Below are positions 16,428 to 18,010 of a stretch of DNA of 51,832 bases, one piece after another (the stretch's first letter is position 1; the number at the start of each line of letters is the position of its first letter). A program made the position numbers and the translations under genes. The stretch spans positions 1 to 51,832 of the forward strand of contig JAFZKD010000023.1 in NCBI GenBank assembly GCA_017553785.1. Direction: 5' to 3'. The notes beneath the pieces are model-generated. The model worked only from the letters and a program-made list of their open reading frames with translations, was not told the DNA's origin and did no database searches. The DNA is from Muribaculaceae bacterium. Lineage in GTDB: Bacteria > Bacteroidota > Bacteroidia > Bacteroidales > Muribaculaceae.

Positions 16428-16510
16428 ATCAATTATTGCCAACAAACAGCAACGTCAATCGAGAAAATCAGTATGTCACACTGTTTTAATTCTATCTATC
16501 GATTAATGAC

Positions 16511-16597
16511 AACTAAAAACGGTTGTTTTTCAAAAAAGCAACCAAAAACAGTTGTTTTTTGAAAAAACAATTAAAAATGGTTGTCAATTTCAAAAAA
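16511..16597 (+). repeat. Three tandem imperfect 29-bp repeats in the satD promoter region
   Basis: Three adjacent units (16511-16539, 16540-16568, 16569-16597) align without gaps around a shared core of AAAAAnnGTTGT. Units 1 and 2 continue as a T-run then an A-run; unit 3 differs there. Overlapping inverted repeats occur, for example TTGTTTTTT, one base, AAAAAACAA. The TTG of the satD -33 element (16581-16583) is inside unit 3. There are no spacers between units, so this is not a CRISPR. An operator for an autoregulator is the simplest reading. Confidence 0.75.
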
Positions 16598-16611
16598 TAT
16601 GTATAGCTTTG
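16581..16611 (+). promoter_or_regulatory. Promoter of the satD-DUF3307-GH92 run
   Basis: TTG at 16581-16583, 20-bp spacer, TAGCTTTG at 16604-16611. Predicted start near 16615, about 29 nt before the ATG. Confidence 0.65.
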
Positions 16612-16643: not shown

Positions 16644-17291
16644 ATGAAAGGAATCATTACAGGCGACATTGTAAATTCTTCCCGCATCAAGCACCAGGAT
16701 AGAGCAGAGTTACTGAACTGCCTAAGCATCATGGGAGATGAATTGCAATGCGTGTCCCCATATACTATGGAACTATTCCGCGGTGACAGTTTTCAATTAT
16801 TGATTGAGAACCCCTGTGAAGCAATGAGAATTGCCATCTTGCTCAGAGCAGGACTCATCCATCACACACTCAATAAAGCAGACGGAGTATGGGATGCCCG
16901 TATTTCGTTAGGCATCGGTAATGTGGAATTCTTGTCAGAAAAAATCGTGACCTCCGACGGCGAGGCATTCCAGTACTCAGGACGCCAGCTTGACAGCATG
17001 GGAAAGCAGCGTCTTGCTGTCATGACCCCTTGGAAAGATGTGAACGAAGAACTGGACTTGTCCACTTCATTTATCGATGACATCATTAATGGCTGGTCCA
17101 GCAAACAGGCAAGGATGATTTACCTGACCCTCAGACAGGATTCGCCCAAAAAAGATGTGGCAAAAGAAATCGGCACTTCGGTACAGAATGTGCGCAACGT
17201 CCTCTCCTCAGCCAAAGAACACCTTGTCAGGAAATACCTTGACCGCTACTACAAGCTCATAGATAGCCATCAAAACAAGACAACAAAATGA
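16644..17291 (+). CDS. SatD-family protein: cyclase-like domain plus helix-turn-helix
   Basis: A 215-residue soluble protein of the SatD family; role unknown. Residues 1-about 130 match SatD (MKGIITGDIVNSS). I also see an order of motifs like class III nucleotide cyclases: GDIVNSS (Asp8), FRGDSF (Asp48), RISLGIGNVEF, then DGEAFQYSGRQLD. There Gln110 and Arg114 sit where the cyclase Asn-x3-Arg would be. That relation is inference. Residues about 160-205 (KKDVAKEIGTSVQNVRNVLSSAKEHLVRKYL) look like a sigma-70 region 4-type helix-turn-helix. A TTG-initiated extension back to 16581 lies within the promoter and is rejected. The stop overlaps the next start (ATGA). Confidence 0.85.
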   Translation: MKGIITGDIVNSSRIKHQDRAELLNCLSIMGDELQCVSPYTMELFRGDSFQLLIENPCEAMRIAILLRAGLIHHTLNKADGVWDARISLGIGNVEFLSEKIVTSDGEAFQYSGRQLDSMGKQRLAVMTPWKDVNEELDLSTSFIDDIINGWSSKQARMIYLTLRQDSPKKDVAKEIGTSVQNVRNVLSSAKEHLVRKYLDRYYKLIDSHQNKTTK

Positions 17292-18010
17292 ATCTGATCA
17301 TATTACTCAAACTGTTGTCTGCTCATATCATTGCCGATTTCTTCCTGCAATTTGATTGGCTATGCCAGGGTAAACAAGAAAAAGGAATCCGTGGTCTGAA
17401 AGCCCAGACCATTCATGCGCTCATCCATGCAGTGTGTGCCTACCTATTGTTGGCAAACTGGGTAGGCTGGCTGATTCCTTTGGTCATTTTCATCACCCAT
17501 TTTATCATCGACATTGTCAAGGTCAAGTGGTTCAGCAAAAGTACTATCGCGTTTCTGATTGATCAAGCGGCACACATTGCCGTGATAGTTGGATTATGGT
17601 GGATGATGTATGCCGACAATGCTACGCTTCAAACTTGGCTTTGCAGCCAAATTCTAACACAAAGGTTTTGGATTTTGTTCATTGGCTATATGCTCATCTT
17701 TAAGCCTGCCTCCCTGCTGATTGGCATGTTCATCAAGGGTTGGGCGCCATCCAACAGCATGCAGTTACAGGGTATGCCCAATGCCGGCAAGTGGATCGGA
17801 TATATCGAGCGTGTATTGGTGCTTACCTTTGTCATCACTGGGAACATCGAAGCCGTCGGCTTTCTGCTGGCAGCAAAATCAATCTTCCGTTTTGGAGACC
17901 TCAACAAGGCACGGGAAATTAAAATTACCGAATATGTCTTGCTCGGGACATTAGCTAGTTTCTCGATTGCATTGCTTATAGGTTTTACGATTAATCTACT
18001 CATTCATTAA
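17288..18010 (+). CDS. DUF3307 polytopic membrane protein
   Basis: A 240-residue membrane protein with about six or seven hydrophobic segments. Polar residues are placed inside or next to the helices: HIIADFFLQ near the N-terminus, THFIIDIVK near residue 75, and DQAAH near 97. These His/Asp pairs are characteristic of DUF3307 and could bind a metal or form an active site; that is inference. A second conserved block is GKWIGYIERVLVLTFV with KSIFRFGDL after it. Its ATG overlaps the satD stop by 4 bp, so the two are translationally coupled. Its stop is 15 bp before the GH92 start. Confidence 0.85.
   Translation: MNLIILLKLLSAHIIADFFLQFDWLCQGKQEKGIRGLKAQTIHALIHAVCAYLLLANWVGWLIPLVIFITHFIIDIVKVKWFSKSTIAFLIDQAAHIAVIVGLWWMMYADNATLQTWLCSQILTQRFWILFIGYMLIFKPASLLIGMFIKGWAPSNSMQLQGMPNAGKWIGYIERVLVLTFVITGNIEAVGFLLAAKSIFRFGDLNKAREIKITEYVLLGTLASFSIALLIGFTINLLIH

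Follow-up and report, generated by a model that had tools for sequence, protein, structure and literature searches.

A SatD-like protein with a cyclase-type palm domain and a helix-turn-helix: a candidate autorepressor of a two-gene membrane module

Introduction

What is the role of a protein that combines a sensor-like domain and a helix-turn-helix in a single chain, and whose gene directly precedes that of a membrane protein? This is the question raised by a satD-like gene in a 51,832-nucleotide (nt) stretch of DNA from Muribaculaceae bacterium (contig JAFZKD010000023.1 of assembly GCA_017553785.1), the whole of which we call the window. A preliminary description of the gene proposed that its product may be a degenerate class III nucleotide cyclase fused to a helix-turn-helix, possibly a nucleotide-binding sensor that controls its own transcription. 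Our analysis partly supports that interpretation as a whole, and the reading we favor, with somewhat better than even confidence, is that SatD acts as a one-component autorepressor, gated by a nucleotide, of a membrane module made up of satD and the DUF3307 gene.

Results

A cyclase-type palm domain with an invariant metal site

Translation of 16644-17291 (+) confirmed the motifs first described in the 215-residue product and their order: GDIVNSS (Asp8), FRGDSF (Asp48), RISLGIGNVEF and GEAFQYSGRQLD (Gln110, Arg114). Do these belong to a cyclase-like core? A 71-sequence profile, built from the window protein and its counterparts at 70 of 80 window-type loci, matched the class III cyclase Ma1120 in a search against Protein Data Bank (PDB) structures (E 1.9e-4), with Asp8 and Gly47-Asp48 in register with the metal aspartates and RISLGIG with RIGIHMG. 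The predicted fold of the window protein is likewise of the cyclase type, its core matching solved cyclases in structure comparison, and Cas10 and GGDEF structures match the predicted palm fold no worse than class III cyclases do. The proposed core is therefore upheld, and we regard the palm fold and metal site of SatD as close to certain.

Residues were counted in four SatD sets, not thinned: window type (78), PF16264 type (30), DUF3307-found (30) and distant (16, read off the alignment). Asp8 and Asp48 are invariant in all 154 rows (78/78, 30/30, 30/30 and 16/16, respectively), and Gly47 is replaced by His in part of the distant set (n = 16). The transition-state Asn/Arg pair, four residues apart, which most class III cyclases use, is kept neither in the window protein (Gln110) nor family-wide. 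Position 110 varies across the family, and Gln110 is not a conserved site of SatD. Arg114 is present in 78/78 of the window-type set, which was collected with a peptide pattern itself containing SGR; position 114 is Arg in 8/30 and Glu in 15/30 of the DUF3307-found set, and Arg in 3/30 PF16264 members, 28/30 of which have an Arg one residue earlier. Thus, of the Asp8/Asp48/Arg114 set singled out beforehand, both aspartates stand and Arg114 does not, and the word “degenerate” applies to the transition-state pair and not to the metal site. Since the two-aspartate site is kept, SatD most likely binds a metal-nucleotide, and we read these residues as pointing to retained metal-nucleotide binding, not standard cyclase chemistry.

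Tandem palindromes at satD promoters

If SatD controls its own promoter, where might it bind? Three copies of the palindrome CAAY-N8-RTTG lie upstream of the window gene, starting at 16510, 16539 and 16568 (Table 1). Lone sites of this type occur in the window at chance level (6 found against 5.9 expected), and a mismatch-free pair at 29-nt spacing is unique to the satD promoter in its own genome (about 80% complete), where allowing one mismatch adds one more place. The last TTG of the proximal palindrome (16581-16583) stands at what we take to be the expected place of the -33 element. Downstream of it is TAGCTTTG, which conforms to TAnnTTTG, given as the consensus for the Bacteroides-type -7 box (PMC4747536).

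Across 59 thinned window-type loci, the 250-nt upstream regions hold 94 CAAY-N8-RTTG sites, compared with 25 in 342,086 control bases. At least two sites are present in 32 of the 59 loci, 49 of 57 spacings between sites are 28 or 29, and in 26 of the 37 site-bearing loci a TAnnTT[T/C]G box follows the end of the last site after 19-20 nt. The palindrome itself differs in sequence by clade, with CCTTATAA- or TGAAACAA-type half sites, for example, while the period is unchanged. A best lag of 28 or 29 was found in 52/59 window-type loci (thinned; control tiles 49/1639) and 22/26 PF16264-type loci (thinned; control tiles 14/380), and a period of 28-29 in 27/30 DUF3307-found loci (not thinned; control 10/392), the other three being at 56-58; the period appears in 2.6-3.7% of control tiles. 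Operator similarity tracks helix-turn-helix similarity when palm-domain similarity is allowed for (partial Mantel 0.365; 0 of 999 permutations; 70 loci), in a test that corrects for shared ancestry only in part. That the arrays vary along with the helix-turn-helix of the same protein lends statistical support to the earlier suggestion that it controls its own transcription, and SatD is likely to bind its own putative operator array.

A membrane protein partner

Which gene might be controlled together with satD? DUF3307 (PF11750) lies directly downstream of SatD in 86 of 89 loci, a count that includes five contigs fetched twice and used a DUF3307 profile seeded from 15 of these genes. All 58 downstream proteins tested with Pfam match PF11750; among these 58 Pfam found no recognizable nucleotide-binding domain and, besides DUF3307, weak matches in one to three members only. 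A survey that began from PF11750, which is present in 77/296 genomes, and that looked at the 30 best and 20 weakest loci plus the window, found SatD directly upstream in 30/30 and 16/20, respectively. The predicted DUF3307 model (predicted local distance difference test 90.6, predicted template modeling score 0.70) has twelve helices and found no convincing match among PDB structures. Its invariant polar residues include His13, Asp17, His71, Asp75, Asp92, Glu174 and Arg175, which suggests a membrane-embedded active or binding site.

The window's DUF3307 (17288-18010) also has a match (E 4.2e-18) to PHROG 2470, a family of phage membrane proteins classed under host takeover; a tblastn search found no phage record, and DUF3307 is listed for a jumbo phage paper (PMC8504454). 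In PF16264-type loci many of the next genes encode short, hydrophobic-looking proteins of about 105-115 residues (L022-L040) and others encode proteins of about 240-250 residues (L011-L021); at these loci the regulator may have exchanged one membrane partner for another.

Gene start, helix-turn-helix and the SatD label

The ATG at 16644 is the likely start codon, preferred because a longer TTG frame (from 16581) would start upstream of the putative -7 box. In the predicted model the helix-turn-helix comprises helices 153-165, 169-176 and 180-189, and the region 4-like character ascribed to it earlier is in line with matches to Sigma70_r4_2 in 27 of the 71 alignment members (E up to 1; best 2.2e-5), the window protein's own sigma-70 region 4 match being weak (E 0.0065, below cut-off). 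Is “SatD” the right name? The window protein has no match to the Pfam SatD model, PF16264, at E up to 10, and so lies outside its membership cut-off. It is tied to that family through intermediates, because 30 of the 71 alignment members do match (E up to 1; best 2.3e-12). On sequence grounds the label is correct in a wide sense only.

Table 1. Positions of the satD-like gene, its domains, its putative promoter elements and the downstream gene in the window
Feature	Position	Strand	Basis or remark
SatD-like gene, P0001, 215 amino acids	16644..17291	+	Open reading frame and translation
Class III cyclase/GGDEF/Cas10-type palm domain, residues 1-130	16644..17033	+	Profile match and predicted fold
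Asp8 codon; Asp48 codon	16665-16667; 16785-16787	+	Within palm domain
C-terminal helix-turn-helix, residues 151-198	17094..17237	+	Pfam on relatives and model
Distal palindrome CAACTAAAAACGGTTG, putative operator	16510..16525	+	Operator role inferred
Middle palindrome CAACCAAAAACAGTTG, putative operator	16539..16554	+	29 nt further; operator role inferred
Proximal palindrome CAATTAAAAATGGTTG, putative operator	16568..16583	+	29 nt further; operator role inferred
Putative Bacteroides-type -7 box TAGCTTTG (TAnnTTTG)	16604..16611	+	20 nt past proximal palindrome
DUF3307 (PF11750) membrane protein, 240 amino acids	17288..18010	+	Start overlaps satD stop by 4 nt; Pfam E 1.3e-18

Distribution and mobility

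Matches are patchy, occurring in 10/119 family genomes (including one false match, L010) and, among the seven genomes listed for its own genus, in the window's own genome and one other. A relative is present in 15 plasmid records (E up to 1e-3), six of them 3,770-bp plasmids of Escherichia coli or Klebsiella pneumoniae, and in all four plasmids opened the gene that follows is annotated as DUF3307. The incomplete gene tables place the pair beside Rop, MobA and one short open reading frame in pEC34A, and list a YdgH-like gene and a small helix-turn-helix gene as well in a 4.4-kb plasmid. The pair is a main cargo of plasmids of 3.8 kb and 4.4 kb in E. coli and K. pneumoniae (L124, NC_019077.1, 1792-3481; L125, NZ_LR890364.1, 278-1937). 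An Enterobacter kobei plasmid copy (L127) has, by eye, two TCAACC-N5-GGTTGA sites 29 nt apart.

In genome family f18 (L158-L163, L168-L172, L176-L177) SatD carries an insertion in its helix-turn-helix, with His-Asp replacing Gly-Asp, and these copies have no evident 29-nt array; in two of the loci (L160 and L163) DUF3307 stands without SatD, by eye downstream of a ThiF/HesA-like gene. The pair also occurs on a contig labeled archaeal (L112, Methanomassiliicoccus sp. UBA6). Eight genomes have two SatD copies (G172, G281, G289, G321, G329, G347, G392 and G400), and in the seven of these with DUF3307 it adjoins the copy with the lower PF16264 score; two regulator-partner pairs may exist side by side in such genomes.

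Discussion

How would such a module work? We propose that the N-terminal class III cyclase-type palm domain would bind a metal-nucleotide, either a nucleoside triphosphate or a nucleotide-based signal, while lacking the standard Asn/Arg pair, and that the C-terminal helix-turn-helix would bind, presumably with a dimer on each, the tandem palindromes in its own promoter, which number two to five copies 28-29 bp apart. Because the proximal palindrome covers core promoter elements, SatD binding would block RNA polymerase, and the even spacing would let SatD load cooperatively. DNA affinity would be governed by the nucleotide state of the palm domain, and release from DNA would switch on satD together with its partner DUF3307, which, left uncontrolled, would presumably be costly to the cell. 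Repression and a nucleotide ligand are both probable.

Several observations weigh against this autorepressor. The hhalign probability is just 22.6%. A best lag of 28 or 29 is missing from 7/59 window-type and 4/26 PF16264-type thinned regions, and it was obtained for two plasmid copies (L124 and L126) and not for two others (L125 and L127). The period was seen in just 4/16 SatD loci of the weak DUF3307 set, for which the upstream limits were coarse; the helix-turn-helix is still present in those 16 distant proteins, with an insertion in 11/16. A smaller residual link (0.137) ties operator similarity to the palm domain, and the Mantel test leaves some shared ancestry in place. Nor is the pairing universal, as 4/20 weak DUF3307 genes have no SatD neighbor and 3/89 SatD loci have no DUF3307.

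Could SatD instead be an active enzyme, like mCpol or GGDEF proteins, whose cyclic or linear nucleotide acts on DUF3307 in a Panoptes-like pairing of synthase and membrane effector, the helix-turn-helix merely limiting dose? Both metal aspartates are invariant whereas the class III Asn/Arg pair is not, the palm fold scores equally with Cas10 and GGDEF, and SatD is paired with a membrane protein and found on very small plasmids. Moreover, the invariance of Arg114 within the window type leaves room for catalysis, Ma1120 is active despite Ala in place of Asn (PMC4215837), and mCpol needs Asp6/Asp57 for its product and shares a two-gene operon with a transmembrane effector (PMC12657218), so SatD too may be an enzyme. 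We nevertheless consider this unlikely: Pfam recognized no nucleotide-binding domain in 58 DUF3307 members, the DUF3307 model had no convincing PDB match, a PADLOC scan of four proteins produced no hit to DUF3307 or to the palm domain, and the operator array found at most SatD genes would be superfluous for a pure synthase. A related scheme, which we also think improbable, is that SatD-DUF3307 is a mobile two-gene guard in which a nucleotide signal is either produced or sensed by the palm domain, which restrains the promoter and/or the membrane protein; when phage or nucleotide stress disturbed the signal, the membrane protein would be released to act on the envelope, a Panoptes-like logic with a DNA repressor as the sensor.

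The direction of control is a separate matter. That SatD uses the same arrays to activate its own promoter seems to us quite unlikely, even though the CAAY-N8-RTTG arrays end at -33, 19-20 nt before the -7 box (26/37), a layout that activators use too, and a fixed site beside a promoter fits an activator equally well. In several -35/-10 promoters the proximal palindrome lies, by eye, over the spacer and the -10, which indicates occlusion and favors repression. Finally, the varying transition-state Asn and Arg positions would suit a palm domain that has lost nucleotide binding and persists as a structural dimerization module; the retention of both metal aspartates in every row of the four sets makes this very unlikely.

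Under the autorepressor reading, SatD and DUF3307, two families of uncharacterized role, become a single module open to testing, for which fold, metal site, operator and partner can each be named. If that reading is true, a cyclase-type nucleotide-binding domain joins the sensors of small one-component repressors. As the pair is carried on very small plasmids, its benefit or cost to the host becomes a direct question.

Comparison with known systems

How does SatD compare with proteins already described? With the class III adenylyl cyclase Ma1120 (4wp8/4wp9) it shares the palm fold and, in register, the first metal Asp, the second Gly-Asp and the R-I-x-I strand, whereas the matched structure has no helix-turn-helix. 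The base-specifying Lys101 and Asp157 of Ma1120 correspond, in our mapping by spacing, to Leu44 and Thr103 of the window protein, and the counterpart of its Arg168, which is kept in that active cyclase (PMC4215837), is not kept across the SatD family. The GGDEF, Cas10 and mCpol (Panoptes OptS) palm domains share the fold class and two metal acids with SatD but have no DNA-binding tail like that of SatD, whose motif in the window is RGDSF, not GG[D/E]EF. GTP cyclohydrolase III MJ0145 (2qv6) also differs from SatD, being an enzyme that is not known to carry such a tail. In Panoptes, mutation of the mCpol active site abolishes the product, and the partner of OptS is a membrane effector (PMC12657218); SatD-DUF3307 likewise has a palm protein adjoining a membrane protein. 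With regard to a Panoptes-type effector domain (S-2TMbeta, CARF or SAVED), the Pfam scan assigned DUF3307 to 58/58 proteins and gave otherwise only the weak matches noted above.

The combination of cyclase and helix-turn-helix has a precedent in mycobacteria, where such fusions are known: the mclx proteins (Rv0386, Rv1358 and Rv2488c) have a cyclase homology domain and a C-terminal helix-turn-helix, and two of them reportedly miss certain canonical cyclase residues and may be regulators (PMC4452763). Unlike SatD, they have a LuxR-type tail, an AAA/NB-ARC domain may intervene, and neither the membrane partner nor the operator array of SatD figures in the description given of them there (PMC4452763).

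A further comparison is with PF16264 SatD, of the Streptococcus sat operon, which shares the motif order and 29-nt arrays of the window type but has its Arg one residue earlier and, at many loci, a different next gene. Mentions of it are brief in the relevant parts of two papers, the protein being merely annotated in one on Fusobacterium (PMC10326533) and satD appearing in an expression table in one on Streptococcus gallolyticus (PMC5786311). In Streptococcus pyogenes satD scored as essential in emm1, emm28 and emm49 strains and is present in 178/249 genomes (PMC11323703). Such a pairing of essential and accessory would be expected if SatD were a repressor or antitoxin holding a costly neighbor in check, and an autorepressing SatD, if our reading is true, would offer a reason for it as a repressor guarding against its own neighbor.
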